Assembly (NCBI GenBank): GCA_017744735.1
Contig: JAGIAR010000001.1
Location: 186,001 to 250,000 of the forward strand
Direction of reading: 5' to 3'
Source: Novosphingobium sp.
GTDB taxonomy: Bacteria > Pseudomonadota > Alphaproteobacteria > Sphingomonadales > Sphingomonadaceae
DNA length: 64,000 nt
Shown here: one piece after another, positions 354 to 18,775 of the stretch
Position numbering within the stretch: position 1 is the stretch's first letter
Layout: each line of letters opens with the position of its first letter
Made by a program: the position numbers and the translations under genes
The notes under the pieces: generated by a model
Databases searched by the model: none
What the model saw: only the letters and a program-made list of their open reading frames with translations
What the model was told of the DNA's origin: nothing

Positions 354-1067
354 TTACTGAACCCGCACGATCACGAAGGACACGTTGTCCGGCGCCCCGC
401 GCTCGAGCACCTTAGCCAGCAGCGCGTCCGCCGCATCCTCGATCGGCTTCGAATAGAGCGCCGCAAGAATCTCGATCTGGCTGACCAGCCGGGTCAGCCC
501 ATCGCTGCCGAGCACGAAGATGTCGCCGTGGAACGCGACCCCGCCGACCGTATCGACCTTGAGTTCCTCCGCGGCGCCGACCGCCCGGGTGATGACGTTG
601 GCGTTGGGATGGCTCTCGGCATCTTCGGGCTCGAGCATCTTGGCCGCGATCAGATCCTGCACCAGGCTGTGATCGCGGGTGATCTGCACGATCCCGCCGT
701 CGCGGATGCGATAGGCGCGGCTGTCGCCGGCCCAGAAGCAGCGGTATTGGCCGTCGCCGATCGACAGGCCGACCACGGTGCTGCCGATGGTCTTGTGCTC
801 GATGCCCTCATGGCCGAGATCGATCAGTTCCTGGTTCACGCGGGTGAGCGCCTTGACCGCCAGCCCGGCCTGCTGTTCGGGATGCTGGCCGTCCGGCAGC
901 TCGGACAGCGCTTCGACCACCTTGGCGCTGGCGACTTCGCCCGCCTCGTGCCCGCCCATGCCGTCGGCCACAGCCCACAGTGCCTTGTCCGGAAGACCGA
1001 GCACGGAGTCCTCGTTGAGCTTGCGCTTGAGCCCCACATGGGTCCGGATCGCGCAGTCGAAACCCAT
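354..1067 (-). CDS. PP2C-family serine/threonine protein phosphatase
   Basis: A 237-residue cytosolic phosphatase of the bacterial Stp1/PppA type, which removes phosphate from Ser/Thr residues using two metal ions. The metal-binding motifs are in order: R-x(n)-NED at residues 18-20, DGMGGHEAG at 35-43, GDSRAYR in the middle, GSDGLTRLV, and the C-terminal DNVSFVIVRV. No membrane segment or signal peptide is seen, and the length is normal for a bare PP2C domain. It is divergent from the Ser/Thr kinase gene that starts 100 bases away, so the two probably form an antagonistic kinase-phosphatase pair, as in the PpkA/PppA systems of type VI secretion. No secretion genes are visible here, so the target pathway is open. 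Confidence 0.93.
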   Translation of the reverse strand: MGFDCAIRTHVGLKRKLNEDSVLGLPDKALWAVADGMGGHEAGEVASAKVVEALSELPDGQHPEQQAGLAVKALTRVNQELIDLGHEGIEHKTIGSTVVGLSIGDGQYRCFWAGDSRAYRIRDGGIVQITRDHSLVQDLIAAKMLEPEDAESHPNANVITRAVGAAEELKVDTVGGVAFHGDIFVLGSDGLTRLVSQIEILAALYSKPIEDAADALLAKVLERGAPDNVSFVIVRVQ

Positions 1068-1167
1068 TACGTTTTCCTTACTCGAGACTGACCTAAACGC
1101 TGGATATTTCCAATGGATCGTGCCAGTTCGCTCGCACGGGAATTACCTACAACACGGAACGTCGGGA

Positions 1168-3459
1168 ATGAGCAAGGCTTATAGCAACAAGGCGCTTCCG
1201 CCGGGTACCATCCTGCGCGAATGGCGTCTCGAAAGCGTGCTGGGGGTTGGCGGCTTCGGGATCGTCTACAAGGGCCGTGGAATCTATTTCGACGAGCTCG
1301 TTGCGATCAAGGAATATTTCCCGAGTTCGATTTCCGAGCGCGACGAAGATGCCACCGTCGTGCCGATCGATTCCGACGCGGAAGAAGTCCACGCCCTGGG
1401 CCTCAAGAAGTTCGTCGAGGAAGCCAAGCTCCTGTGGAACCTCTCCACCCCGAGCCGCCATCCGAACATCGTCAGCGTGCGCTCGCTGTTCGAAATCCAC
1501 GGCACCGCCTACATGGTGATGGATTTCGAAGACGGCATGTCGCTCTCAAAGCTGATCAAGAGCGGCCACAAGTTCACCGAGCAGGAACTGGGCGGGCTGA
1601 TCCGCCCGATCGCCGAGGGGCTCGAACGCGCGCACCGCGTGGGCGTGCTCCACCGCGACATCAAGCCGCCGAACATCCTGGTCAACGACGACGGGCGCTC
1701 GGTGCTGATCGATTTCGGTTCGGCCCGGTTCGAAAGCGGGGAAGCGACCAGCACCAAGGTCACCTTCCACACCCCGCCATACGCGGCGATCGAACAATAT
1801 GTGAAGACCTACGACCAGGGTCCGTGGACCGACATCTACGCGCTCGGCGTGGTGCTCTACGAGTGCATCACCGGCGAAAAGCCGCCCGAAGTCCTCGAGC
1901 GGATGCACGCGGGCCTCGGCACGCCGCTGGCCGACGGCGAATGGCCCGGTTTCAGCAAGCCGTTCCTCGCCGCGGTGGATGCGGCGATGACGATCAAGCC
2001 GGCCGACCGCCCGCAGTCGATCTCCAAATGGCTCGAGCTGTTCGACAAGGCCGATGTGCCGGTCGCGGCACCGGCGCCGGAGGAGGTCGACGACGAGGCG
2101 ACCCGGATCGCCGATTTCAAGACCAATGCCGAGGACTTCGTGCCGGTCGCCCCGCCCCCGCCCGGCGTCGAGAAGCACGAGAAGGTCGAGACCGCGGTTC
2201 CGAACGATCCCAAGGAAGCGGAATTCAAGCGCGCGGGCGAGGACACCAGCACCGCCAAGAAGGCGGCCAGCGTGCCCGAAGCAGCGGCCGCGGCGGCCGC
2301 CGCCAAGCCCGCGAAAGCCGCGAAGCCCGAAAAGGCGCCCAAGCCGGCCGCCGCTCCGGGAACACCCGGGGCGAAGAAGTCCAACGCACCGCTGATCGGC
2401 GGCGCGGCGGTTGCGCTGATCGTTCTTGCCGGCGGCGGCTGGTATTTCATGCACGGTTCGGGCGCCAAGCCCGACCAGGCGATGCTCTCCGAACCGAACC
2501 CGGCGGCAGCTGGCGCCGTTCCGCCGGTCCAGCAGGTCGATATCGCCGAGGCCGGCGGGGTTGCCGCGGCGGTCACCGCCCTCGCCACCGATGCGCAGAA
2601 TGCCGGCGCCCCGGCCGGAGCGATCAAGGCCCTGACCGATGCCGGCCCGGCGCTGACCAAGCTCGAGGCCGAGAAGAAGGCGGCCGGCGGCGATGCCGTA
2701 AAAGCCAAGGCCAAGGACGACGAGATGGGCCAGATCGCCCGCGCGGCGAGTGCCAAGTTCGCCGGCGCGCTGGTGAGCGAAGCCGACGCCCGCGGCCGCA
2801 AGCTCACCGGCGCGCTGGCCTGGGCCAATCCGCGCAACCCGGGCGCCTCTGCCGGCAAGTCGGCCGCGCAGCAGAATGCCGCACGGGCGATCCGCACCGC
2901 GCTTTCGGCGTTGCGCAGCGCCGCCACGAGCGCCGGCACCGCAACCGACACCGCCCAGTCGTTGACCTTCGCCCGCCAGGCCCTGGCCCAGCGCGCGAGC
3001 TACAACGCGCTGGTCGCACGCGCCGGCACGATAAAGGACAGTGCCGCGGCAGCGGTCGGTGAAACCGCGGTTACCCCCGATTCCGGCGTCACCGCCGGTC
3101 CGGCGGCTGCCCCGACCCAGGCCGAGAAGGCTGCCCCGCAGGCCGAAGCCCCGCGCGCCGGCAGCGGGGAGCCGGCGACGGACAGCCAGAAGCGCAGCCT
3201 CAAGTCGGTGGTCGACAGCGCGAAGGAAGTCTCCAAGCAGGTGATCGCGCTGGGCAGCCGCGGGTCGGGCTCGAACGCAGCCGTGCTGCAGAACAACGCC
3301 AACAACGCGCGCAAATATAACGACTATCTCGATACGCTGTCGAATTCGATGCGCGGATCGCGGACCAAGGCCGAGGCCGATGACCTGATCGCCAACGCCA
3401 ACCGCACCCGCGCCTTCCTGAACCAGATGCTGGCGGAATCGAAGGCGGCGCTGAAGTAA
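1168..3459 (+). CDS. Membrane-anchored serine/threonine protein kinase
   Basis: A 763-residue Hanks-type kinase. The glycine loop GVGGFGIVYKG is at 26-36, the ATP-binding lysine is K48 in VAIKEYFP, the catalytic loop HRDIKPPNIL starts at 162 and DFG is at 182-184, so the active site is complete. After the kinase domain comes a linker rich in Ala, Lys and Pro, then one membrane helix at about 409-430. An Ala-rich, probably periplasmic C-terminal region of about 330 residues has no domain I recognise. The ATG at 1168 was chosen because the kinase fold begins about 20 residues later; in-frame upstream ATGs lie inside the antisense of the phosphatase gene. It is divergent from the PP2C gene, which is its likely counter-enzyme. 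The extracytoplasmic part probably senses a signal. Confidence 0.93.
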   Translation: MSKAYSNKALPPGTILREWRLESVLGVGGFGIVYKGRGIYFDELVAIKEYFPSSISERDEDATVVPIDSDAEEVHALGLKKFVEEAKLLWNLSTPSRHPNIVSVRSLFEIHGTAYMVMDFEDGMSLSKLIKSGHKFTEQELGGLIRPIAEGLERAHRVGVLHRDIKPPNILVNDDGRSVLIDFGSARFESGEATSTKVTFHTPPYAAIEQYVKTYDQGPWTDIYALGVVLYECITGEKPPEVLERMHAGLGTPLADGEWPGFSKPFLAAVDAAMTIKPADRPQSISKWLELFDKADVPVAAPAPEEVDDEATRIADFKTNAEDFVPVAPPPPGVEKHEKVETAVPNDPKEAEFKRAGEDTSTAKKAASVPEAAAAAAAAKPAKAAKPEKAPKPAAAPGTPGAKKSNAPLIGGAAVALIVLAGGGWYFMHGSGAKPDQAMLSEPNPAAAGAVPPVQQVDIAEAGGVAAAVTALATDAQNAGAPAGAIKALTDAGPALTKLEAEKKAAGGDAVKAKAKDDEMGQIARAASAKFAGALVSEADARGRKLTGALAWANPRNPGASAGKSAAQQNAARAIRTALSALRSAATSAGTATDTAQSLTFARQALAQRASYNALVARAGTIKDSAAAAVGETAVTPDSGVTAGPAAAPTQAEKAAPQAEAPRAGSGEPATDSQKRSLKSVVDSAKEVSKQVIALGSRGSGSNAAVLQNNANNARKYNDYLDTLSNSMRGSRTKAEADDLIANANRTRAFLNQMLAESKAALK

Positions 3460-3495: not shown

Positions 3496-5283
3496 TCAGT
3501 CGTGCGGTTTCATCCCGTAGGGCAGTTCGGAGGTCCAGGCCTGGACCTGCTGCACCTTGCCGCCGACGAAATGGAACAGCTCGGTCACCTGCAGCGTGCG
3601 CGGATAGGTCTTGTCCACGTCGGTCGCCGCCGGGAAATCCTCGAAGGTGCGATAGACCACCAGGCCCCGCTCCTCGTCCACCGCGAGCACTTCGCGGTCG
3701 CGGATCCGTTCGACCGATTTCAGCGCGGGGTTGCCGAAGGCCGGCGCGCAGGCGCCGACATCGAGCCCGTTGACCAGCCAGTGGCAATCCGCCCCGATGC
3801 CGCCGGGGGCGCTGGAGGCGTGGTCGTTCATCGCCTTGTAGAAGGCTTCGGCGCCGGCGATCATCGCCTTGCGCGTGGTCCGCTGGCCCGCCGGCAGCAC
3901 GTCGAAGCTGGGGGCGCTCGCCGGCTCGACATAGGGCTGGCCGTATTCCTTGCGCCGGATCAGCGCCTCGATCCCGCCTACGCGGTCGCCCGCGGCGTTG
4001 ATCGTGAAGCTCGCCCAGGCCGGCTGGCCATGTTCCTCGATCCGCCCGATCCACACCGCCTTGCCGGTCGAGGCATCGGCGACCACCAGCGGGTGTTGAT
4101 CGACCGCGGTCACGGTCGCCCAGATGCCCTCGCCCACGCGGATGCCGACGCTGTTCTCGGCATAGCCGACCGCGCTTGCCCAGGGCACCGACTTCCAGGT
4201 GTTGTTCACCATGCCGGTAGCGACCTCGTGGGCCATCGTGCCCAGGCATACCGTGTCGCAGGCCTTGGGATCGACCTTGTACTTCGGCGGCTGCGAGCCC
4301 GGACCCCAGAACGGATTGTGCATGAAATAGGGGACGTAGGTGAACACTGCCTCGATCTTCTGGACCTGCGCATCCTTGATCCGGAACGCCTCGAGCAGGG
4401 TGATCGAGTTCGGCCATTTGAGCGCGGTCTTCATCTCGCGCCCGTCGGTCAGCTTGTAGTGGTCGAACTCGTTGGCGTGATCGAAGAACCCACTCGCCAC
4501 CGCGACCCCGCGTTCGGTATCGATGATCGAGAAGTGGCGGCGGACCCGCTTGTTGATCCGGTAGATCCCGAGCTTGAACTGGTTCTCGCAGCCCGAAGCG
4601 ATCGCGGCTGCATTGCCGCCTGCACCCGCCGGGGGAGGCGCGGTGGTGCTGATCCCGTTCTCGAGCCGCGAACAATCGTCGGCGAAATGGGTGTTCACCT
4701 GCCCGTCGTTGAGCTCGACCGTGTCGAAATAGCCGTCGGCGATCGCCAGCATCCGCTCGCGCGGGCGGCGCTGGTCTTCGGGCAGGATCGCGTTGAACTC
4801 GGGATCGTGGACCATCTTGGTCACATCGCCGAACGGCGCGGGCAGCGCGGTCTTGCGGTGAACCACGCTCTCGATCTCGTCGATCCGGCCGTCCTTCACA
4901 TGGATGCGCACCGCATAGATCGCCGGCTTTCCGTTCTCGCGCACCGAGCCGAACCAGGCGGCGTTGCCGGTGACCGGGTCGGCGGCCTCCAGCCCGGTCG
5001 CATCGACCGCGGTGACCGTGCGCCACAGCCCCTCGCCGAGCTTGAGATCGACGTTGTTCTCGGTGAAGTGCACATGATCGGCCAGCTTGAGCTTCGCCGG
5101 ATCGCGCTCGGCCAGCGCCTTCATGTGCTCTTCGAGTGCCTGGATCAGGCACGGGCGCTCGCACGAGGTGTCGCGCACCGCGCTTGTCTCGCCCGCGGCC
5201 TGGGCGAAGGCCGGGGCGGCCGAAACGAAAGCCGCGGAAGCCGCCAGGGCTGCCAGCATGGTCCGGTGGAAACGCATCCTCAT
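3496..5283 (-). CDS. Exported protein of unknown function with an internal duplication (SnoaL/NTF2-like context)
   Basis: A 595-residue protein with a Sec signal peptide ending near APAFAQ, so it is predicted to be periplasmic. The sequence contains two related halves. The first has NNVDLKLGEGLWRTVTAVD followed by a beta-rich stretch ending in VVHRKTA; the second, about 300 residues later, has NSVGIRVGEGIWATVTAVD and ends in ALIRRKEYG. Both halves carry a region rich in small alpha-plus-beta elements of the kind seen in SnoaL/NTF2 folds, but I see no certain catalytic residues. The start at 5283 is preceded by GAGGGAGAG; the ATG six bases further in is an alternative. It lies 106 bases downstream of a PQQ alcohol dehydrogenase on the same strand, with a hairpin between them, and is probably co-expressed with it. 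Function unknown. Confidence 0.8.
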   Translation of the reverse strand: MRMRFHRTMLAALAASAAFVSAAPAFAQAAGETSAVRDTSCERPCLIQALEEHMKALAERDPAKLKLADHVHFTENNVDLKLGEGLWRTVTAVDATGLEAADPVTGNAAWFGSVRENGKPAIYAVRIHVKDGRIDEIESVVHRKTALPAPFGDVTKMVHDPEFNAILPEDQRRPRERMLAIADGYFDTVELNDGQVNTHFADDCSRLENGISTTAPPPAGAGGNAAAIASGCENQFKLGIYRINKRVRRHFSIIDTERGVAVASGFFDHANEFDHYKLTDGREMKTALKWPNSITLLEAFRIKDAQVQKIEAVFTYVPYFMHNPFWGPGSQPPKYKVDPKACDTVCLGTMAHEVATGMVNNTWKSVPWASAVGYAENSVGIRVGEGIWATVTAVDQHPLVVADASTGKAVWIGRIEEHGQPAWASFTINAAGDRVGGIEALIRRKEYGQPYVEPASAPSFDVLPAGQRTTRKAMIAGAEAFYKAMNDHASSAPGGIGADCHWLVNGLDVGACAPAFGNPALKSVERIRDREVLAVDEERGLVVYRTFEDFPAATDVDKTYPRTLQVTELFHFVGGKVQQVQAWTSELPYGMKPHD

Positions 5284-5315
5284 TCTCTCCCTCATCCGCA
5301 ACATGCCCACCCCCT

Positions 5316-5343
5316 GCACCCCTCCCGCAAGCGGGAGGGGTGC
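5316..5343. repeat. Perfect 13-bp hairpin between dehydrogenase and downstream gene
   Basis: GCACCCCTCCCGC, two bases, then its exact complement. It lies between the stop of the PQQ dehydrogenase (5390) and the start of the next gene on the same strand (5283). It could lower read-through or stabilise the upstream mRNA. CCCTCCCGC-type hairpins are a common dispersed form in GC-rich genomes. Confidence 0.6.
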
Positions 5344-5389
5344 GAGACTTGGCCGCGTCAGCGGTCTAGTCGCAGCGGGGTGGGTCCGC

Positions 5390-7537
5390 TTATTTCCCCT
5401 TCGCCGAAGCGTCGGCGTAATCTTCGTTCGCCCGCGCGATCAGATACTGGTGGATCGCCTCGACGTCCTCGGGCTTGAGCACGTCGGCGAAGCCGACCAT
5501 GCCCTTCTCGCGATAGATGCCCTTGAGCACGATGTCGTTGAAGGCATCGTGGGTCTCCTTGGTCATCCAGCGCAGATCCTTGACCCCGCCGATCGCGTCC
5601 TCGCCGTGGCAGCGCACGCAGGTCTGCTGGTAGAGCTCGCGCCCGCGGCTGACGACCGATTCCGGCGCACGCAGCGGCGGCGGCGCAGGCAAGGCCGATG
5701 GCGGCGGCAGCGGCGGCAGGGCTACTCCCTTCGCGTCGAGCTTGAACACCATCAGCTTGGCGGTGCCGGTGCGGAACGGGCCGTTCTTGGTGAGGTTGTA
5801 GACCGGCGAACCGCCCCAGCCGGCGTTGATCGCGATATATTGCTCGCCGTCGATCGTGTAGGTGATCGGCCCGGCGACCGGCGCCTGGTCGATGTTCATC
5901 TCCCACAGTTTGGCCCCGGTATCGGCGCGATAGATCGCCAGCGTCTTGTTGATCGTGCCCTGGATCAGAAGGTTTCCGGCAGTCGACAGCACCCCGCCCG
6001 ATCCCGGCATGCCGTAGTCGACCCGCCACTTCTCGGTCTGGGTCTTCGGATCCCATGCGAGCAGGTAGCCCTTCTCGGCCGCGACCGCCTCGGCCTGCAG
6101 TTTCGCCCGCAGCTCGGGCTCGTTGCCGTAGGCCTGGCCGGTGTTGTTCGCACCCTTGCGGTAGACGTATTTGCCGTCCTCCGCCCGGGCATAGACCGAG
6201 CCCTGCTCCTGTGCCGAGAAGTACATCAGCCCGGTGAGCGGCGAATAGCTCATCGGATGCCAGGTGTGCCCCGCCATCCAGCTCGGCGACATCAGATGCG
6301 GCGTGGTGGTGTTGTGCGCGGTCGGGAGCACGATCGGGCGGCCGTTGGCGTCGATCCCGCTGGCCCAGGTGTTGACCGAGACATAGCTCTTGCCGCTGAT
6401 CAACTCGCCGGTGACCCGGTCGATCACGTAGAAGAAGCCGTTCTTCGGCGCCTGCATCGCGACCTTGCGCAATTTTCCGTCGATCACGATGTCGGCCAGC
6501 ACGATCGGCTGGGTGCAGGTGAAGTCCCAATCCTCTTCGGGCACCATCTGGTAGTGCCACTTGTACTGGCCGGTCTTGGCGTCGACCGCGACCATCGAGC
6601 AGAGGAAGAGGTTGTCGCCCTTGTCCTGGCTGCGGAAGTGCCACATGTGCGGCGATCCGTTGCCGGTGCCGATATAGACCGTGTCGAGGTCCGGATCGTA
6701 GGCGAAGCTGTCCCACGCATTGCCGCCGCCGCCAGCCGCGACGTCCCAGAAATTGCCGGTCCAGGTCGGCTGGGCGATTGTCATCGCGCTGTCCGAGGCT
6801 TCGCCGTCGGGGCCCTTCGCCGGATCGGTGGGCACGATGTAGAACTTCCACACCTTCTTGCCGGTCTCCGCATCCCACGCGGTGACGAAGCCGCGCGAGC
6901 CGTAATCCGCGCCGCCGTTGCCGATCACGACCTTGCCGTCATAGACCCGCGGCGCGCCGGTGATCGAATATTCGTGGCCCGGCGGGAAGGTCTGGGCGGT
7001 CCAGATCTCGTGCCCGTCCTTGGCGTCGATCGCGATCAGCCGCCCGTCGAGCGCGCCGATGTAGATCTTGCCCTTCCACGCCGCGATGCCGCGCGCGGAG
7101 GGGCCGCAGCAGGCCAGCCGCGCCCATTCGGGGCCGACCTTAGGATCGTATTTCCACAGCACCTTGCCGGTCTTGCCGTCATAGGCGGTCACGACGTCGT
7201 AGATGCTCTCGTTGTAGAGCACGCCGTCGATTTCCAGCGGGCTCGCCTGCACGCCGCGGTAGGTCTCGAGATCGGCGTACCACGCCAGGCCCAGGCGCTG
7301 GACGTTCTTGTCGTTGATCAGGGTCAGCGGCGAAAAGCGCTGCTCGTCCCAGGTGCGGCTGTAGCTCTGCCAGTCGCCGACGCTGGCCGGCGCATCGGCA
7401 TGGCGCATCGTCTCGCCGGTAACCTCCGCCGGCCCCGCGCTCGCCGCGACGCAACTGGCGAACAGACTCAGCGATGCAAGCGCGGCGATCAGGCGCGAGG
7501 CGCCCCTGGTGAAAGTCCTGAACATCCTCGATCCCAT
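5390..7537 (-). CDS. PQQ-dependent alcohol dehydrogenase with C-terminal cytochrome c (quinohaemoprotein, type II)
   Basis: A 715-residue exported enzyme that oxidises an alcohol in the periplasm and passes electrons from PQQ to a fused c-type haem. It has an N-terminal signal segment (about 1-35; LFASC could be a weak lipobox) and eight-bladed propeller repeats such as WDPKTQTEKWRVDYG. The vicinal disulfide of PQQ enzymes is ACCGP near residue 143, and the metal and PQQ region includes DGEASD and GTGNGSP. The catalytic aspartate is in EEDWDFTCT, and the haem motif CVRCH is near 640. The residue two after the catalytic aspartate is Thr, not Asp, so the lanthanide signature is absent and calcium is expected. 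It shares layout and many motifs with the dehydrogenase at 10972. It leads a leftward operon divergent from the SMP-30-like gene. Substrate unknown. Confidence 0.93.
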   Translation of the reverse strand: MGSRMFRTFTRGASRLIAALASLSLFASCVAASAGPAEVTGETMRHADAPASVGDWQSYSRTWDEQRFSPLTLINDKNVQRLGLAWYADLETYRGVQASPLEIDGVLYNESIYDVVTAYDGKTGKVLWKYDPKVGPEWARLACCGPSARGIAAWKGKIYIGALDGRLIAIDAKDGHEIWTAQTFPPGHEYSITGAPRVYDGKVVIGNGGADYGSRGFVTAWDAETGKKVWKFYIVPTDPAKGPDGEASDSAMTIAQPTWTGNFWDVAAGGGGNAWDSFAYDPDLDTVYIGTGNGSPHMWHFRSQDKGDNLFLCSMVAVDAKTGQYKWHYQMVPEEDWDFTCTQPIVLADIVIDGKLRKVAMQAPKNGFFYVIDRVTGELISGKSYVSVNTWASGIDANGRPIVLPTAHNTTTPHLMSPSWMAGHTWHPMSYSPLTGLMYFSAQEQGSVYARAEDGKYVYRKGANNTGQAYGNEPELRAKLQAEAVAAEKGYLLAWDPKTQTEKWRVDYGMPGSGGVLSTAGNLLIQGTINKTLAIYRADTGAKLWEMNIDQAPVAGPITYTIDGEQYIAINAGWGGSPVYNLTKNGPFRTGTAKLMVFKLDAKGVALPPLPPPSALPAPPPLRAPESVVSRGRELYQQTCVRCHGEDAIGGVKDLRWMTKETHDAFNDIVLKGIYREKGMVGFADVLKPEDVEAIHQYLIARANEDYADASAKGK

Positions 7538-7801
7538 CTTGTCCGCCCGGCCGGGGGCTTGCGTGGTTTGCCATGTCTCGCGCGAAAGGGAAGCCTCGAT
7601 CCGGCGATGCAGCGCCATGGTACCGGGCCAGGCTTCCGCCGCAAAGGGTCCGGCTGGTCCGATGTGGAACAAAGACTTGACCCAGTTGCGCATCGGCCGC
7701 CCCAGCCGGATGCGCGCCGGCATTTGCCCCTTCCCTCGGGCGGCTCGGCGTATATGGTGCCGCCAAACCGCCCGAATGGGCGAGGAGAGAGGAACACGAT
7801 T

Positions 7802-8743
7802 ATGCGACGCGGCGCGATCATCGCGGCCCTTGTGCTGAGCGGCTGCATTACGGCGGGCGCGCCGGCCCAGGCCGACATTCCGATCGACGGTGCGCGGGTC
7901 TTTCCCGAAAGCCTCACCATGGACAGCGCCGGAAATCTCTACAACAGCAGCTCCCTTGGCACGATCTACCGCACCGTTCCGGGCGGTACCAAGGCCGAGC
8001 CGTGGATCGTGCCCAATGCCGAGAACGGGCTGACCTCGCTGTTCGGCGTGCTGGCGGACGAGCGCCACGGCGTGCTGTGGGCCTGCAACAATCCGGGCTT
8101 CGGCGGCCCGCCGGCGCCGGGCGCGGTGTCGAGCGTCAAGGCCTTCGATCTCAAGACCGGCGCCTACAAGGCCAGCTATGCATTCCCCGCAGGCAAGCCG
8201 GCCGCCTGCAACGACATCGCGGTGGCGAAGGACGGCGCGGTGTGGGCGAACGACACCTCTGCCGGGCGGTTGTTCTATCTCCCCGAGGGCGGCAATGCGC
8301 TGGTGCTGTTTGCCGAGGGCCCCGAACTGGTCGGGGTGGACGGCACCGCCTTCGCCGAAGACGGCACGCTCTATATCAACAACGTGCGCAAGAACCTGTT
8401 TCAGCGGGTCGATCGCAAGCCCGACGGATCCTATGCCGGGCTGACCGACCTGAAACTGAACGACACGCTCAACGGGCCGGACGGCTTGCGCCCGCTGGGC
8501 GGCAACCGCTTCCTCCAGGCCGAAGGACCCGGCGGGCGGATCGCGCTGATCGAGGTGCATGGCGACAGCGCCACCGTGACTCCGGTCAAGACCGGGCTTG
8601 AGTCCTCGCCCTCGATCGCGTGGATCGGCCGGACCGGCTACGCCACCGAAGGCAAGATCGCCTATTTGTTCGACCCGGCGCTGAAGGACAAGGATCCCGG
8701 CACCTTCTACATCCGCAGCTTCCCGCTGCCGGACGGGCTGTGA
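7802..8743 (+). CDS. SMP-30/gluconolactonase-like beta-propeller lipoprotein
   Basis: A 313-residue protein with a textbook lipobox, LVLSGC at residues 10-15, so it is predicted to be an outer- or inner-membrane-anchored periplasmic lipoprotein. The rest reads as a six-bladed propeller of the SMP-30/LRE type with repeated blade motifs (DSAGNLYNSS, AKDGAVWAND, AEDGTLYINN). Such proteins are often lactonases, but the metal ligands cannot be assigned with confidence. The start has a strong ribosome-binding site (GGAGAGAGGA). It is the first gene of a rightward operon; its stop overlaps the GTG start of the next gene by four bases. Hydrolysis of a lactone made by the nearby PQQ dehydrogenases is a reasonable but untested idea. 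Confidence 0.82.
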   Translation: MRRGAIIAALVLSGCITAGAPAQADIPIDGARVFPESLTMDSAGNLYNSSSLGTIYRTVPGGTKAEPWIVPNAENGLTSLFGVLADERHGVLWACNNPGFGGPPAPGAVSSVKAFDLKTGAYKASYAFPAGKPAACNDIAVAKDGAVWANDTSAGRLFYLPEGGNALVLFAEGPELVGVDGTAFAEDGTLYINNVRKNLFQRVDRKPDGSYAGLTDLKLNDTLNGPDGLRPLGGNRFLQAEGPGGRIALIEVHGDSATVTPVKTGLESSPSIAWIGRTGYATEGKIAYLFDPALKDKDPGTFYIRSFPLPDGL

Positions 8744-9450
8744 GGCTCCCGGCGATCCTCGCCGCGGCAGCGCTGCTCGCAGCGCCGCTGCCGGCACTCG
8801 CCCAGACCAGCGCGATGGACCGCGAAATCGACGCACTGACCCTCAGGGTGCAGAAGCTGGAGGGCGCGCGGGCGGTGAAGAAGCTGCAGCGGGCCTTCGG
8901 CTATTACGTCGACCGGGGCCTGTGGGGCGATGCGGCCGACCTGTTCGCCGATAACGGCACGATCGAAGTCGGGATCGACGGGGTCTACCAGGGCAAGGAC
9001 CGCATCCGCGAATATCTCAAGCGTCTCCACGGCGGGCAGGAAGGGCTGATCTACGGCCAGCTCAACGAATGGGTCACGCTGCAGCCGGCGATCTCGGTCT
9101 CGCCCGACGGCAGGACCGCCACCGCGCGCTGGCGCGACCTCGGCATGCTCGGCCAGTACAAGAAGCACGCCGAATGGCGCGACGGGATCTACGAGAACAC
9201 CTATGCCAAGGGCGCGGACGGGATCTGGCGGATCCAGTCGCTGCATCTCTACGTGAACTTCGTCGCGCCTTACGAGAAGGGCTGGGCGCGGCTGAAGCCG
9301 GGCGAAGGGCTGGTGCAGAGCCAGGCTTCGAAGGACTACCCGGCAGACCGGCCGCCAAGCGCGACCTACGCCCCCTTCCCCGCCGTCGAAATCCCGCCGT
9401 TCCAGGCTCCCAACCCCGCCACCGGCAAGCCCGTGCAGGGAGGCAAGTGA
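8740..9450 (+). CDS. Exported SnoaL-like protein, paralogue 1 (active-site histidine replaced)
   Basis: A 236-residue protein starting at a GTG that overlaps the previous stop codon (GTGA), so translation is coupled. The signal peptide ends at about PALAQ. The mature part begins with a short coiled helix and then FGYYVDRGLWGDAADLF, the conserved Tyr/Asp helix of SnoaL/scytalone-dehydratase-like folds. It aligns through its length with the next two genes, including the tail IPPFQAPNPATGKPV. Where the two sister proteins have a histidine in NHMQ, this copy has Trp (LNEWVTLQ). If that histidine is catalytic, as in scytalone dehydratase or BaiE, this copy may bind rather than turn over its ligand, or partner a sister protein. 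Confidence 0.85.
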   Translation: MRLPAILAAAALLAAPLPALAQTSAMDREIDALTLRVQKLEGARAVKKLQRAFGYYVDRGLWGDAADLFADNGTIEVGIDGVYQGKDRIREYLKRLHGGQEGLIYGQLNEWVTLQPAISVSPDGRTATARWRDLGMLGQYKKHAEWRDGIYENTYAKGADGIWRIQSLHLYVNFVAPYEKGWARLKPGEGLVQSQASKDYPADRPPSATYAPFPAVEIPPFQAPNPATGKPVQGGK

Positions 9451-10169
9451 TGCGCAAGACCCTGCTCTCGCTCTGCGCGGCCGCGCTCGCCCTCACCGCG
9501 GCCCCGGCCTTCGCGCAGGAAACCCCCGAGGCCCGCCTCGCCGCCTACAAGCATCGGGTCGAACTGCTCGAAGACCAGGATGCGGTCGAGAACCTCCAGG
9601 CCGATTACGGCTATTATTTCGACAAGGGCCTGTGGAACGACGTCGCCGACCTGTTCACCGCGAAGGGCAGCTTCGAATACGGCCAGCGCGGCGTCTACAT
9701 CGGACGCGAGCGGATCCGCCACGCGCTGCTGCTGTTCGGGCCGCAGGGCCTCGCCCCGGCGCATCTCAACAACCACATGCAGCTCCAGGCGGTGATCGTG
9801 GTCGCCCCCGACGGCAAGAGTGCGACCGCGCGCTGGCAGGGCATGGTGATGCTGGGCGAGCCCGGCCATAACGGCATCTGGGGCGTCGGCATCTACGAGA
9901 ACACCTACGCCAAGGAAGCCGGCGTGTGGAAGATCGCCAGCCTGCATTTCTACCCGGTGGCGCTGACCGATTACGATCAGGGCTTCATGAAGTCAGCGCT
10001 GCCGATGGAGGGGGTGAGCGCGCTCTACCCGCCCGACAAGCCGCCGACGGAGGTCTACCGGACCTTCCCGTCGAACTACATCCCGCCCTTCAGCTTCGTC
10101 CACCCGGTGACCGGCAAGTCGCTGAAGGATTTGCCGCAACCCAAGGACGACGTGGTCGGGAGGGAATGA
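9450..10169 (+). CDS. Exported SnoaL-like protein, paralogue 2
   Basis: A 239-residue exported protein (signal peptide to about PAFAQ) whose ATG overlaps the preceding stop by one base (TGATG). It carries YGYYFDKGLWNDVADLF and the histidine motif LNNHMQLQ, the Tyr, Asp and His arrangement used by dehydratases and isomerases of the SnoaL/NTF2 superfamily. It also carries the family tail IPPFSFVHPVTGKSL. It is the middle of three tandem paralogues that clearly arose by duplication. Exported SnoaL-like enzymes are less common than cytoplasmic ones. Position in an operon with a PQQ dehydrogenase suggests action on a periplasmic alcohol or carbonyl compound. Confidence 0.87.
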   Translation: MRKTLLSLCAAALALTAAPAFAQETPEARLAAYKHRVELLEDQDAVENLQADYGYYFDKGLWNDVADLFTAKGSFEYGQRGVYIGRERIRHALLLFGPQGLAPAHLNNHMQLQAVIVVAPDGKSATARWQGMVMLGEPGHNGIWGVGIYENTYAKEAGVWKIASLHFYPVALTDYDQGFMKSALPMEGVSALYPPDKPPTEVYRTFPSNYIPPFSFVHPVTGKSLKDLPQPKDDVVGRE

Positions 10170-10171
10170 GC

Positions 10172-10966
10172 ATGAACCGGATCCTGTTCGCAGCGGCGCT
10201 GCTGGCTTCCGCCCTTCCCGCCCCCGCCTTCGCGCAAGACGCGCAGGCGGTGAACGCCAAGCTCGACGCGCTCGATGCCCGCATCACCCGGCTGGAGGAC
10301 CTCAACCAGATCGAGCGGCTTCAGCGGACCTACGGCTATTTCGTCGATAAGGGTCAGTGGACCCAGCTGTCCGAGCTGTTCACCGACGATGCGACGCTCG
10401 AGATCGGCGGCAAGGGCCTGTTCCTCGGCAAGAAGCGCGTGCTCGAATACATGCAGACCGCCTTCGGGCCCGACGGCGCGAAGATCGGCCTGCTCGCGAA
10501 CCACATGCAGTTCCAGACCCTCCCCGACGTCTCGGCCGACGGCAAGACCGGCTGGATCCGCAGCCGCGCCTTCGTGATGTCGAACGGCGGCTGGGGCCTG
10601 CCGCTCTACGAGAACGAGTACCGGAAAGGCGCCGACGGCAAGTGGCGGATCAGCCGCCTGTCGGGCCCGTTCACGATGTACACCAATTGGGACGGCTGGG
10701 GTAAGAACGCGCTCAACAACACCTGGCCGGACAAGTTCGATCCGCCGCCGGACCTGCCGCCCTCCACGGTCTACCTGACCTATCCGGCCTATTACATCGC
10801 GCCGTTCCACTATCCGAACCCGGTCACCGGCAAGCCGTTCAGGAGCGATACCGGCCCGGTCGGAGCCTATGCCGCGCCGCCGGGGACGCCGGAACAGCAG
10901 GCCTCGCTCAAGGTCGGACAACTGGCCGACGGCACCCAGCCGATCGCCGACACGCCCAAGGATTGA
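10172..10966 (+). CDS. Exported SnoaL-like protein, paralogue 3
   Basis: A 264-residue exported protein (signal peptide to about PAFAQ). It has YGYFVDKGQWTQLSELF, NHMQFQ and the tail IAPFHYPNPVTGKPF, and so keeps the Tyr, Asp and His of the putative active site. It ends with about 35 extra residues compared with its sisters. Two starts are possible: ATG at 10166, which overlaps the previous stop as ATGA, and ATG at 10172. The second was chosen because the GGGAGGG ribosome-binding site lies only one base before the first but about seven before the second. The stop is five bases before the start of the second PQQ dehydrogenase. Confidence 0.85.
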   Translation: MNRILFAAALLASALPAPAFAQDAQAVNAKLDALDARITRLEDLNQIERLQRTYGYFVDKGQWTQLSELFTDDATLEIGGKGLFLGKKRVLEYMQTAFGPDGAKIGLLANHMQFQTLPDVSADGKTGWIRSRAFVMSNGGWGLPLYENEYRKGADGKWRISRLSGPFTMYTNWDGWGKNALNNTWPDKFDPPPDLPPSTVYLTYPAYYIAPFHYPNPVTGKPFRSDTGPVGAYAAPPGTPEQQASLKVGQLADGTQPIADTPKD

Positions 10967-10971
10967 ATTCG

Positions 10972-13056
10972 ATGAAGCTTCGCCAACTCGCCGCCGCCGT
11001 GATGCTGCTCGGTGCCTGCCTTGCGGGCGCCGCCTGGGCCGCCGGCAAGGTCGATCCGCTGGCCTCCCCGCTTCCGGGGGCGTGGACCAGCGACGGGCGC
11101 GACTACAGCGCGCAGCGCTACAGCCCGCTGACCCAGATCACCGCCGCGAACGTCGGCAAGCTGGGGCTCGCGTGGTACGACGACCTCGGCACGATGCGCG
11201 GGATCGAGGCGACCCCGCTCTACGCCGACGGGGTGCTCTACAACACGCTCGCGTGGAACATCACCAGCGCCTACGACGCGAAGACCGGCAAGAAATTGTG
11301 GACCTACGATCCCCAGGTGCCGCGCGAATACGGCCGCTATGCCTGCTGCGAGCCGGTTGCCCGCGGGCTCGCCATGTCGGGCAACAAGATCATCATCGGC
11401 ACGCTCGACGGGCGGCTGATCGCGCTCGACAGGAAGACCGGCAAACCGCTCTGGACCACCGAGACCTTCCCCGAAGAAACCAAGGATAAATACGCCTATT
11501 CGATCACCGGCGCTCCGCGGGTGTTCGGCGACATGGTGGTGGTCGGCCAGTCGGGCGGGGACCTCGGCGTGCGCGGCTTCGTCGCCGCGTGGGACGTGAA
11601 CACCGGCAAGAAGCGCTGGAAGTTCTTCCTCACCCCCAATCCCGAGGGCAAGCTCGACGGCGAGGCCTCGGACCCGATCATGGACATGATCCGCAAGACC
11701 TGGTCCGACGAGGGCATGTGGAAGACGCTGGGCGGCGGCGCGAACCCGTGGGATTCGATCGCCTACGATCCGGTCAACAAGCTCGTGTTCGTCGGCACCG
11801 GCAATTCCAGCCCGCATTCGCAGTTCTACCGCAGCCCGGGCGGCGGCGACAATCTGTTCGTCTGCTCGATCGTCGCGCTGCACGCGGACGACGGGTCCTA
11901 TGCCTGGCACTACCAGCTCGTCCCCGGAGAGGAATGGGACTACACCTGCACCTCCTCGATGATCCAGGCCGACCTGACGATCGACGGCAAGCAGCGCCAG
12001 GTGCTGATGCAGGCGCCCAAGGACGGCTTCTTCTATGTCCTCGACCGCAAGACCGGGAAGCTGATCAGCGCCAAGCCGCATGTGAAGACCAACTGGAATC
12101 TCGGTTTCGACGCGAACGGCCGCCCGAACGTCAATCCGGCGGTGCGCTACGATACCGATCCGGTGCTGGTCTATCCGGGCCCCGGCGGCGCGCATAACTG
12201 GTTCCCGATGGCGTTCAGCCCGAAGACCGGGCTGGCCTATTTCCCGTCCTACCAGTCGGGCTTCGTTTACGCCCGGCAGGAAGGCTGGACCCCGCAGCCG
12301 TTCCGTTCGAACAGCGGCTGGGGCGGCTATTCGGGCGATGCGCTGAAGAAGCGGATCGAATTGCAGAAGCAGGCCGACGCCGACGAGAAGGCGTGGCTGA
12401 CCGCGTGGGATCCGGTGAAGCAGCAGGTCGCCTGGCAGGTGCCCCTGCCGCGCCACGGCAACGGCGGGGCGATGGTAACCGCGTCGAACCTGGTGTTCGA
12501 AGGCACGACCAAGCAGACCTATGCCGCCTTCGACGCGCGAACCGGCAAGGTCCTGTGGGAATTCCCGACCCAGAGCGCCCCGGTTGCGGGCGGGATCACC
12601 TACATGCTCGACGGCGTGCAATATGTCGCGGTCAACGCCGGCTGGGGCGGCGGTGCGGCGCAGGTCGAGCGCGGCGCCGGCACCGAACTGCCGCGCGCCA
12701 ACGCCCGGCTGCTGGTGTTCAAGCTCGGCGGCACGAAGCAGCTTCCGCCGCTCGCCAAGACCGACCCGATCCCCCAGCCCCCGCCGCTGCGCGGCACCGA
12801 GGCGCAGATCCAGAAGGGCGCCCAGCTGTTCGCCGACACCTGCGCCCAGTGCCACGGGCGGCTCGCGGTCGGCGGGGTCAAGGATCTGCGCCATCTGACG
12901 CCGGAGACCCACGCCAAGTTCAACGACATCGTGCTCGGCGGGATCTACAAGGACAAGGGCATGGCGAGCTTCGCCGACATCCTCAAGCCCGAGGACGCCG
13001 AGGCGATCCACGACTACCTGATCGCCCGCGCGAACGAGGACTGGGGCGGGAAGTAG
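10972..13056 (+). CDS. PQQ-dependent alcohol dehydrogenase with C-terminal cytochrome c (second copy)
   Basis: A 694-residue quinohaemoprotein. The N terminus has a signal segment with a possible lipobox (LLGAC), so it may be lipid-anchored. The vicinal cysteines are C125-C126 in YACCEP, the metal region includes DGEASD and GTGNSSP, the catalytic aspartate is in EEWDYTCT (D-x-T, so calcium type), and the haem motif CAQCH is at 624-628. The C-terminal cytochrome is nearly the same as in the copy at 5390 (GGVKDLR, YLIARANED), so the two are paralogues. It ends an operon whose genes overlap or nearly touch. A TTG nine bases upstream is in frame, but ATG at 10972 gives the better signal peptide. 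Two copies with different substrate pockets may act on successive alcohols. Confidence 0.93.
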   Translation: MKLRQLAAAVMLLGACLAGAAWAAGKVDPLASPLPGAWTSDGRDYSAQRYSPLTQITAANVGKLGLAWYDDLGTMRGIEATPLYADGVLYNTLAWNITSAYDAKTGKKLWTYDPQVPREYGRYACCEPVARGLAMSGNKIIIGTLDGRLIALDRKTGKPLWTTETFPEETKDKYAYSITGAPRVFGDMVVVGQSGGDLGVRGFVAAWDVNTGKKRWKFFLTPNPEGKLDGEASDPIMDMIRKTWSDEGMWKTLGGGANPWDSIAYDPVNKLVFVGTGNSSPHSQFYRSPGGGDNLFVCSIVALHADDGSYAWHYQLVPGEEWDYTCTSSMIQADLTIDGKQRQVLMQAPKDGFFYVLDRKTGKLISAKPHVKTNWNLGFDANGRPNVNPAVRYDTDPVLVYPGPGGAHNWFPMAFSPKTGLAYFPSYQSGFVYARQEGWTPQPFRSNSGWGGYSGDALKKRIELQKQADADEKAWLTAWDPVKQQVAWQVPLPRHGNGGAMVTASNLVFEGTTKQTYAAFDARTGKVLWEFPTQSAPVAGGITYMLDGVQYVAVNAGWGGGAAQVERGAGTELPRANARLLVFKLGGTKQLPPLAKTDPIPQPPPLRGTEAQIQKGAQLFADTCAQCHGRLAVGGVKDLRHLTPETHAKFNDIVLGGIYKDKGMASFADILKPEDAEAIHDYLIARANEDWGGK

Positions 13057-13127: not shown

Positions 13128-13820
13128 ATGGCCCGCCTCGCCCGCATCGTGATCCCCGGGGTCGCGCACCACGTCACCCAGCGCGGCAACCGCAGGCAGC
13201 CGGTGTTCTTCTCCGACGATGACCGCACGCGCTATCTCGGTCTGCTCAAGGGCGGCTGCGCAAAGGCCGACGTGCGCTGCCTCGCGTGGTGCCTGATGGA
13301 CAACCACGTTCACCTGGTGCTGGTACCGACCGATGCGGACGGACTGCGCAAGGCGCTGGCCGACGCCCACCGGCGCTACACGCTGGCAATCAACCTGCGC
13401 GAGGGCTGGAGCGGTCATCTGTTCCAGGAGCGCTTTGCGAGCTATCCGATGGACGACGCGCATCTGATGGCGGCGGTGCGCTATGTCGAGCGCAACCCGG
13501 TCGCGGCCGGGCTTGTGCGTGAGGCGGCGGACTGGCGCTGGTCGAGCGCGGCGAGCCATATCGCCGGCAGGCGGGTCGCCGGCGATCCGCTCACCGATGT
13601 CGCGGCGCTCGGCGCGCATGTCGGCAACTGGCGCGCGCTGCTGCAATACGGGCTCGAAGCAGGCGATGTGGGCGCGGAAGGCGAAGCGGTTGCCGAGGCG
13701 ATCGAGAAGCGGCTGAGCACCGGGCGGCCGTTTGCGGAAGCGGAATGGATCGCGGCGGTGGAGAAATCCAGCGGCCGGTCGCTGGCCTTGGGCAGGCGAG
13801 GTCCGAAGCCGCGAGGGTAA
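13128..13820 (+). CDS. REP-associated tyrosine transposase (RAYT, IS200-like Y1 family)
   Basis: A 230-residue HUH-type single-strand DNA transposase. The metal-binding HUH motif is H60-V-H62 in MDNHVHLVLVP, and the nucleophilic tyrosine is Y84 in HRRYTLAIN. Other family marks are HHVTQRGN near the start and VERNPVAAGLV later. RAYTs are domesticated relatives of IS200 transposases that handle REP sequences rather than moving as full insertion sequences. Here the gene is flanked on both sides by copies of the same REP core, one upstream and three downstream, with two more at 18.8 kb, which fits a working RAYT-REP pair. The ATG at 13128 follows the upstream REP. The active site looks intact. 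Confidence 0.92.
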   Translation: MARLARIVIPGVAHHVTQRGNRRQPVFFSDDDRTRYLGLLKGGCAKADVRCLAWCLMDNHVHLVLVPTDADGLRKALADAHRRYTLAINLREGWSGHLFQERFASYPMDDAHLMAAVRYVERNPVAAGLVREAADWRWSSAASHIAGRRVAGDPLTDVAALGAHVGNWRALLQYGLEAGDVGAEGEAVAEAIEKRLSTGRPFAEAEWIAAVEKSSGRSLALGRRGPKPRG

Positions 13821-17170: not shown

Positions 17171-18775
17171 ATGGGCGGATTGCGGAAACCTTGGCGCGTG
17201 GCCCTTGGCGGAGCCGCTTCCGGGGCATTGCTCGCTTTCGCGGCGCCCGCCGCGGCCGCCGGCTGCGGCGATCTTGCCAAGCTCGATCTCGGCCAGGGCA
17301 AGGTCACTTCGGCCACGGTGATCGCCCCCGGCAGCTTCGAGCAGCCGGCCGCCGGGTTCGGCCCGCCGCCCGGGGTCGCAAACGCGGTCTACAAGAACCT
17401 GCCCGCCTTCTGCCGGGTGCAGGCGACCCTCACTCCCACCCCGGATTCGGACATCAAGGTCGAGGTCTGGCTTCCCGAGAAGGGCTGGAACGGCAAGTTC
17501 GTGGGCATCGGCAACGGGATCTGGGCCGGCCAGCTCAGCTATTCGCAACTCGCCGATCCGCTGTCCAAGGGCTATGCGGTCGCCACCACCGACACCGGGC
17601 ACACCGGCAGCGGGCTGACCGCCGAATGGGCGGTCGGCCATCCGGAAAAGCTGGTCGATTTCGGCCATCGCGCGGTGCATCTGATGACCGTGACCGGCAA
17701 GGCGGCGGTCAAGGCGCGCTACGGCAAGGCGCCCAAGCTGTCGTTCTGGAACGCCTGCTCCACCGGCGGGCGGCAGGGGCTGATGGAAGCCTATCGCTAT
17801 CCCGACGATTACGATGCGATCTCGGCGATGGCCCCGGCCAATCCGATGACCGCGCTGATGACCCAGAGCATGTGGCAGAACTGGGTGACCAAGCGCGAGC
17901 CGGGCGCGGCGCTGACCCCGCCGATCCTGGGCCTGGTCCATGCGGCGGTGATCCGGCAGTGCGACAAGCTCGACGGGCTGGAGGACGGCCTGGTGTCGCG
18001 CCCCGATGCCTGCGGCTTCGATCCCGGAACGCTGCTGTGCAAGCCCGGCACGACCGAAAGCTGTCTGACCCAGCCGCAGGTCAACGCGATGCGCGCGGTT
18101 TATGACGGCGTGCGCGCGAACAATGGCGACTGGCTGCTGCCGGGCTGGCCGGTGGGCAGCGAGATGCAGCTCGCGGCCCTGGTGAGCGGACCGCGCCCGT
18201 TCCCGGTCGCCTACGACTATTTCAACCTGCTCACCTACGGCGGCCGGCAGGGCTGGGACTGGAAGTCGATGGACTACGCGGTCGCCCTCGCCGACGCGCG
18301 GCAATACGGTGCCGGCATCCTCGATGTGCCGTCCGACGGGCTCGGCCCGTTCTTCGCGCGCGGCGGCAAGCTGCTGATGAGCCACGGCTGGACCGACGGG
18401 CTGATCCCGGCGAACAATTCGCTGGCGTTCTATCGCGGGCTTTACGGCGCGCTGCCGGCAGGCGCGGCGCAAAACCAGCTCCGCCTGTTCATGGTCCCGG
18501 GCATGGATCACTGCTCGGGCGGCGACGGCGCAACCGATTTCGATACGCTCGGTGCGATCGACGCCTGGGCGACCACCGGCCTCGCCCCCAACCGCATCGT
18601 CGCGACGCGTCCGACCACCCCGCCCCCGGGCATGCCGGGCGCCCCGCCCGCGGCGCCGCGCGAGCCGCTGTCGCGTCCGCTGTGCCCCTATCCCGAGGTG
18701 CCCGAATACAAGGGCTCGGGCGACCCGTCGATGGAGACCAGCTTCACCTGCGCGCTGCCGAAGGACGCAAGCTGA
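17171..18775 (+). CDS. Tannase/feruloyl esterase family protein, exported (copy A)
   Basis: A 534-residue exported esterase that would split ester bonds of phenolic acids (gallate, ferulate or similar). A signal peptide covers about 1-30. The catalytic triad is visible as S197 (CSTGGRQG), D409 (HGWTDGLIP) and H447 (GMDHCSGG). The cysteines next to the Ser and His (C196 and C448) form the disulfide that is typical of this family. A C-terminal Pro-rich stretch precedes RPLCPYPEVPEYKGSG. The start has GGGGAGAGAG as ribosome-binding site. It is convergent with the MFS gene and belongs to the same locus as copy B and a TonB-dependent receptor, pointing to use of plant polyphenol esters. The exact substrate cannot be read from sequence. 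Confidence 0.92.
   Translation: MGGLRKPWRVALGGAASGALLAFAAPAAAAGCGDLAKLDLGQGKVTSATVIAPGSFEQPAAGFGPPPGVANAVYKNLPAFCRVQATLTPTPDSDIKVEVWLPEKGWNGKFVGIGNGIWAGQLSYSQLADPLSKGYAVATTDTGHTGSGLTAEWAVGHPEKLVDFGHRAVHLMTVTGKAAVKARYGKAPKLSFWNACSTGGRQGLMEAYRYPDDYDAISAMAPANPMTALMTQSMWQNWVTKREPGAALTPPILGLVHAAVIRQCDKLDGLEDGLVSRPDACGFDPGTLLCKPGTTESCLTQPQVNAMRAVYDGVRANNGDWLLPGWPVGSEMQLAALVSGPRPFPVAYDYFNLLTYGGRQGWDWKSMDYAVALADARQYGAGILDVPSDGLGPFFARGGKLLMSHGWTDGLIPANNSLAFYRGLYGALPAGAAQNQLRLFMVPGMDHCSGGDGATDFDTLGAIDAWATTGLAPNRIVATRPTTPPPGMPGAPPAAPREPLSRPLCPYPEVPEYKGSGDPSMETSFTCALPKDAS

Follow-up and report, generated by a model that had tools for sequence, protein, structure and literature searches.

The window analysed here is a stretch of 64,000 nucleotides from a Novosphingobium sp. 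genome (assembly GCA_017744735.1, contig JAGIAR010000001.1, positions 186,001 to 250,000), and its positions 3496-13056 hold seven genes in two operons that point outward. The leftward operon encodes P1 and dehydrogenase A, and the rightward operon encodes an SMP-30-like protein (SMP), the SnoaL-type proteins s1, s2, and s3, and dehydrogenase B. The features, in window coordinates, are the following:

3496-5277, minus strand: P1, exported duplicated protein of 593 residues with four predicted NTF2-like domains in two repeats of about 290 residues (AlphaFold2, self-alignment)
5390-7537, minus strand: A, exported pyrroloquinoline quinone (PQQ)-cytochrome c dehydrogenase, ATG at 7537 or 7525 (TIGR03075, 539.8 bits)
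7538-7801, no strand: divergent intergenic region, where relatives have a TonB receptor and AraC-type regulators
7802-8743, plus strand: SMP, exported SMP-30-like protein, lipobox LSGC, predicted six-bladed propeller (SSL_N, AlphaFold2)
8740-9450, plus strand: s1, exported SnoaL_4 protein with a GTG start, LdpA-related (PF13577, 85 bits)
9450-10169, plus strand: s2, exported SnoaL_4 protein, LdpA-related (PF13577, 100 bits)
10166-10966, plus strand: s3, exported SnoaL_4 protein (PF13577, 73 bits)
10972-13056, plus strand: B, exported PQQ-cytochrome c dehydrogenase (TIGR03075, 531 bits)
17228-18775, plus strand: tannase/feruloyl esterase, probably linked to the module (PF07519, 308 bits)

Gene calls and family searches place the seven genes where the original prediction, which had been made from the sequence alone, had put them. 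The two PQQ-cytochrome c dehydrogenases that it named are recovered with TIGR03075 scores of 540 and 531 bits (cut-off 480) and CxxCH haem domains, and its five rightward genes, said to overlap or nearly touch, are separated by successive gaps of -4, -1, -4 or +2, and +5 bp. The protein given as 595 residues is indeed duplicated, its halves aligning with an E value of 5e-32 and 28% identity, and counts 593 residues from the ATG at 5277. An export signal, claimed for every product, is kept in orthologues of all seven families according to a rule-based test. Two assignments stand in part. Among the "four SnoaL-related proteins", three belong to SnoaL_4 by sequence and P1 joins them by fold but not by sequence, having no match in Pfam or NCBIfam; for the SMP-30-like lipoprotein, the lipobox and an SSL_N match above the cut-off are present, with an SGL match that is weak (21.5 vs 26.3 bits).

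With the s3 alignment as query, named genomes gave 39 loci, and six further views come from the window and five related genomes; four loci occur twice across both sets, which leaves 41 separate loci, with genes in the relatives called by a simple codon-usage caller. Conservation of gene order, the main check on the original prediction, is borne out by the s1-s2-s3 order in 38 of the 41; the trio is then followed by B in 31 loci and preceded by SMP as well in 24. In 16 loci, dehydrogenase A is next to the cluster, on the left and divergent as in the window in 12 and on the right in four. The hosts are Erythrobacteraceae (Altererythrobacter, Croceibacterium, Alteraurantiacibacter, and Aurantiacibacter), Sphingobium including strain SYK-6, and a few metagenome-assembled genomes labelled Gammaproteobacteria or Steroidobacteraceae, the distribution being patchy within the family (s3 present in 15/200 genomes). 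Chance proximity of the genes is ruled out by the order conserved across the 41 loci.

The export-signal test is positive for most orthologues of P1 (25/26), A (19/22), SMP (22/29), B (37/39), s1 (40/42), s2 (38/43), and s3 (45/48), compared with 95 of 300 random neighbours (32%). A P1-type domain and SMP are fused in one protein in SYK-6 and at L085, L096, and L105, and a TonB receptor and an AraC-type regulator, identified with Pfam, lie between the two operons in G004, G005, and L106-L108. The operons are apart in genome G013, yet SMP, regulator, receptor, A, and P1 are all found together there. Because order and export signals are conserved, SMP and P1-family domains are fused, and receptor and regulator genes link the operons in relatives, a coherent periplasmic oxidation locus, as originally proposed, is strongly supported; the proposed series, in which a substrate is oxidised, its product dehydrated or isomerised, and a lactone opened, is conjectural. 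Judged from these comparisons, the seven-gene set is very probably a working exported module.

Dehydrogenases A and B are composed of a PQQ propeller and a C-terminal haem c domain, with cytochrome domains above the cut-off and the motifs CVRCH and CAQCH. They resemble type II quinohaemoprotein alcohol dehydrogenases (PDB 1KV9, 1YIQ, and 1KB0; B matches 1kv9 with an E value of 2e-187) in this architecture and in the conserved vicinal Cys-Cys and catalytic Asp (GDN column; D308 in A, D293 in B), and we regard PQQ-dependent alcohol oxidation as their putative activity. They differ from these enzymes in several active-site features. Each of the 56 A and B sequences has an extra Cys pair (GDNLF[LV]C and WD[FYW]TC; C313/C341 in A, C298/C326 in B); the 26 other sequences in the comparison never have both extra cysteines. 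The metal ligand Glu of GGAE(Y/F)G is Asp in 56/56 rows (D211 in A, D197 in B), a replacement also seen in some distant relatives; the Asn after the vicinal pair is Ala, Ser, or Thr in all 56, and the Trp of the SPW site is missing. The mature proteins have six cysteines: besides the vicinal pair and the extra pair there are two haem ligands, so that the extra pair likely forms a third disulfide. A (22 rows) and B (34 rows) are each monophyletic and are sister clades, with Shimodaira-Hasegawa-like approximate likelihood ratio (SH-aLRT) supports of 99-100. Outside these clades, the nearest group is a quinohaemoprotein encoded between an exported SnoaL gene and a RPE65/lignostilbene-dioxygenase gene with a Tat-like start in the same Novosphingobium genome, which has 11 PQQ dehydrogenase matches in all. 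These three genes are consecutive on contig C11 (L057:7305-11564), the quinohaemoprotein being 55-56% identical to B and the dioxygenase start being of the twin-arginine type, and similar sets are found in G001, G004, G019, and L097.

The relatives searched commonly have PQQ dehydrogenases. No pqqE above the cut-off was found in seven genomes, and no pqqC in 10 genomes or in 120 genomes of the host order, while the same pqqC search is positive in 26 of 142 Alphaproteobacteria genomes. Host-made PQQ was therefore rejected, and the lack of synthesis genes in the sampled genomes indicates a cofactor taken from outside. Many Gram-negative bacteria are reported to take PQQ from outside (PMC12124388). 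The Novosphingobium genome has no clear orthologue of the E. coli PqqU (best partial match 51 bits), and SYK-6 has a weak full-length match with 28% identity.

The scores of s1, s2, and s3 are well above the PF13577 cut-off of 24 bits. Among solved structures their closest relative is LdpA, a cofactor-free formaldehyde lyase in lignin-dimer catabolism, whose reaction is a dehydration to a quinone methide with loss of formaldehyde. The closest solved structures to the trio are 8abt, 8abu, and 8abv, with E values against 8abt of 5e-21 for s1 and 1e-28 for s2. The 8ABV structure is named as LdpA in PMC11476836, and its sequence has a 100% match in the SYK-6 genome at 1,378,047, where, judged by gene order, it corresponds to SLG_12650 (ldpA) as tabulated in PMC12997858. 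In the aligned stretch, 8abt and 8abu differ by a His-to-Gln exchange at LLLDH, which is why we take this His to be the one studied. It is kept together with the Asp in s2 (His109 and Asp58; NNH in the window protein, NNH/NTH motif in orthologues) and s3 (His113 and Asp61; ANH in the window protein, NHM motif in orthologues, which are 73-86% identical), and both residues are retained in nearly all orthologues of s2 and s3. In s1 the catalytic His is replaced by Trp (W111), the motif GQLNEWVTL (NEW) being present in 40 of 45 orthologues scanned and not found in five.

The trio thus shares with the LdpA/PcfL gamma-formaldehyde lyases (PDB 8ABT-8ABW) the SnoaL_4/NTF2 fold, a conserved Tyr-x-x-x-Asp helix, the His/Asp dyad of s2 and s3, the organisms, and in SYK-6 the gene region. 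It is unlike them in being exported, in comprising three different subunits in one operon with s1 lacking the catalytic His, in its tie to PQQ dehydrogenases, and in sequence, with an identity of about 30-45%; in the tree, s1, s2, and s3 form separate clades outside the LdpA clade, s1 being nearest to it. Exported triple-SnoaL proteins of about 700 residues are encoded on contig C6 of the Novosphingobium genome, in SYK-6 (two just upstream of the module and one elsewhere), and in G004. In all six proteins, the best-scoring model is that of s1 for domain 1 and that of s2 for domain 2, while domain 3 is ambiguous; domain 1 lacks both Asp and His, and domain 3 retains the His. This s1-like, s2-like, and third order is fusion-type evidence placing s1, s2, and s3 in one assembly, and we consider the chances of a hetero-trimer to be about even. 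In such a trimer, s2 and s3 would probably carry the His/Asp dyad, with s1 being structural or regulatory. Two triple-SnoaL copies lie close together both in the Novosphingobium genome and in SYK-6 (L056:2091-6315 and L122:13004-18609), and the former genome has 50 SnoaL_4 matches.

For P1, the AlphaFold2 model (predicted local distance difference test score, pLDDT, 86.6) gave Foldseek/VIA-align matches to NTF2/ketosteroid-isomerase-like domains, with the best Z score of 13.5 on domain 4. Domains 1 and 3, and domains 2 and 4, are homologous to each other, and full-length orthologues, 57-68% identical, adjoin gene A. The SMP model is a six-bladed propeller (pLDDT 92.4). A PDB sequence search with SMP gave no match, and the fold search gave the RPA3624 lactonase with a Z score of 27.6 and 20% identity, tied with other propellers, so that no lactonase is singled out. 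E36, N137, D227, and C95/C136 are invariant in 17 orthologues. SMP is like the SMP-30/gluconolactonase and strictosidine-synthase-like propellers (2P4O, RPA3624, and Drp35) in its six predicted blades and in having the E/N/D residues at the expected motifs, and unlike them in its very low sequence similarity, the SGL score under the cut-off, its lipoprotein nature, and the P1-type fusion in four genomes. The predicted fold and the three conserved putative metal residues would be compatible with a lactonase activity.

In SYK-6, the module occupies 1.3276-1.3387 Mb, followed by lig genes (LigB, LigK, and others) at 1.361-1.370 Mb, a NOV2-type lignostilbene dioxygenase at 1.370 Mb, and ldpA at 1.378 Mb, so that the lig operon is about 23 kb away and ldpA about 45 kb. 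For SLG_12490-12860, the genes listed are ligCBAJRKUI, lsdA, ldpB, ldpA, ldpC, ligM, ferD, ligW2, hpvZ, and lsdD (PMC12997858). An aldehyde dehydrogenase and a BKACE gene beside the SYK-6 module have relatives of 67% and 81% identity beside the C11 dioxygenase locus, and an aldehyde dehydrogenase of the same type also adjoins A-P1 in G002 and G003. The window itself holds, at 17.2-24.9 kb, two tannase/feruloyl esterase genes, a major facilitator superfamily (MFS) carrier, and a TonB receptor. The SYK-6 pair to which the carrier is 55-57% identical is located close to the lig genes. Genes 63-68% identical to the first tannase lie near the s1-s2-s3-B cluster in L079, L081, L088, and L097. The Novosphingobium genome has seven LigB and five RPE65 genes. 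Compared with the LdpA/LsdA pathway of SYK-6 and Novosphingobium F199, in which a lyase is followed by a lignostilbene dioxygenase, the same families recur, and the paralogous C11 locus pairs SnoaL, quinohaemoprotein, and RPE65; the difference is that the proteins of the window module are exported. No PQQ enzyme or periplasmic step is mentioned for LdpA/PcfL in the pathway as described in PMC12997858 and PMC11323797.

The LdpA kinship, the SYK-6 context, the LigB and RPE65 genes of the genome, and the conserved nearby tannase lead us to favour, with modest confidence, lignin-type aromatics as the substrates. That the seven genes together make up a single extracytoplasmic module for the catabolism of lignin-type phenylpropanoid aromatics from plants, with the following enzyme series, is our best explanation, at about even odds. 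A TonB receptor, encoded in the locus in relatives and elsewhere here, would bring the substrate into the periplasm. There, A and B, loaded with imported PQQ, would act on its alcohol or aldehyde groups as oxidases coupled to respiration, the electrons leaving for the respiratory chain via the c-type haem. The oxidised product would go to a cofactor-free lyase or dehydratase of LdpA type formed by s1, s2, and s3, with an LdpA-like elimination. P1 and the putatively metal-binding SMP-30-like lipoprotein might then process the product, for example by isomerisation or lactone hydrolysis, before import by the MFS carrier, and cytosolic enzymes of aldehyde dehydrogenase, BKACE, or lignostilbene-dioxygenase type would finish the pathway. 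The order of the reactions and the opening of a lactone are guesses, and we infer the substrate, the trimer, and the roles of P1 and SMP. A bolder form, in which lignin-oligomer catabolism has a periplasmic branch not described before, is tentative and on balance doubtful: two quinohaemoproteins with new active sites and scavenged PQQ would feed a hetero-trimeric, or single-chain triple-domain, cofactor-free lyase, and dimers would be oxidised and split before reaching the cytoplasm.

Several observations weigh against a lignin-degrading module of this kind. LdpA has no signal peptide, its chemistry is carried over to the trio by homology at about 30-45% identity, and domain 3 of the triple-SnoaL proteins does not match s3 best. 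The proximity to lignin genes spans 23-46 kb, lies outside one operon, and comes from SYK-6 as the sole genome checked. In G002 and G003, SMP-B is present but the SnoaL trio is missing at that place, and at L044, L109, and L111 the module adjoins hexuronate or unrelated genes. The uronate genes adjoining the cluster at L044 and L109, together with the tannase genes close by, would also fit a module acting on other plant polyphenols (flavonoids, gallate esters, or stilbenoids) or on uronate-linked phenolics instead of lignin dimers. The SYK-6 BKACE, to which a gene in L096 is 85% identical, reaches 466.6 bits with the 3,5-dioxohexanoate model (cut-off 430), and this compound could be a fragment of a phloroglucinol-type ring. 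However, BKACE models are hard to transfer, the uronate neighbours are limited to one lineage and may be due to chance, and the SYK-6 context is lignin catabolism, and we regard this alternative as rather unlikely, though worth keeping in mind.

It is less probable still that the dehydrogenases mainly harvest energy from or detoxify mixed alcohols, with the SnoaL proteins, P1, and SMP being non-catalytic binding or chaperone proteins. The missing catalytic His of s1, the lack of a known catalytic motif in P1, and the SGL score of SMP would agree with such helpers, but the His and Asp retained in s2 and s3 do not, nor do the acidic and Asn residues that are invariant in P1 and SMP. That the genes are unrelated neighbours, brought together by chance or by shared regulation only, is hardly credible: in G013, G019, G002, and G003 the operons are not linked to each other, but the order is kept over many genera, with translational overlap, a gene fusion, and A, P1, and SMP rejoined in G013.

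No published account of this locus or of SLG_121xx-123xx was found in the open-licence PMC literature. The exported LdpA-related trio, its lignin neighbourhood in SYK-6, the distinct dehydrogenase clade, and the sampled genomes without PQQ synthesis genes are new here. The published sphingomonad pathways for such lignin dimers (LdpA, PcfL, and lignostilbene dioxygenases) are not described as exported, and SYK-6 has 62 SnoaL/NTF2 homologues (PMC12997858). If a lignin-type module is correct, an exported counterpart beside the best-studied lignin genes would account for part of this large expansion, biotechnology would gain respiration-coupled oxidation steps free of nicotinamide adenine dinucleotide (NAD), and there would be a clear dependence on PQQ from other microbes. 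SYK-6, a strain in which mutants are made routinely, lends itself to testing the module.

A second copy of the module is found on contigs C6 and C15 of the Novosphingobium genome (L054:3-416 and L063:1-2681), with s1 split over the contig ends, which share an exact 14-bp overlap, followed by s2 (73%), s3 (84%), and another s3 (76%). Two A-type dehydrogenases and a P1 homologue are encoded on the C6 side, with dihydroxyacetone-kinase-like and more SnoaL genes further on. The SYK-6 module is adjoined by a gene for a 309-residue protein without a Pfam match (L103:936-1865), of which a 61% identical copy lies on contig C6 (L055:16486-17382). A two-gene molybdenum oxidoreductase, with a 2Fe-2S subunit and a molybdenum cofactor subunit that has a Tat-like start, lies near s1-s2-s3-B at L081:13531-16216 and also in L079, L088, and L097, and is a possible periplasmic aldehyde oxidiser. 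In the window, a REP-type transposase-like gene (13128-13820) lies immediately 3' of B, and divergent PP2C-like phosphatase and serine/threonine kinase genes (354-3459) adjoin P1.

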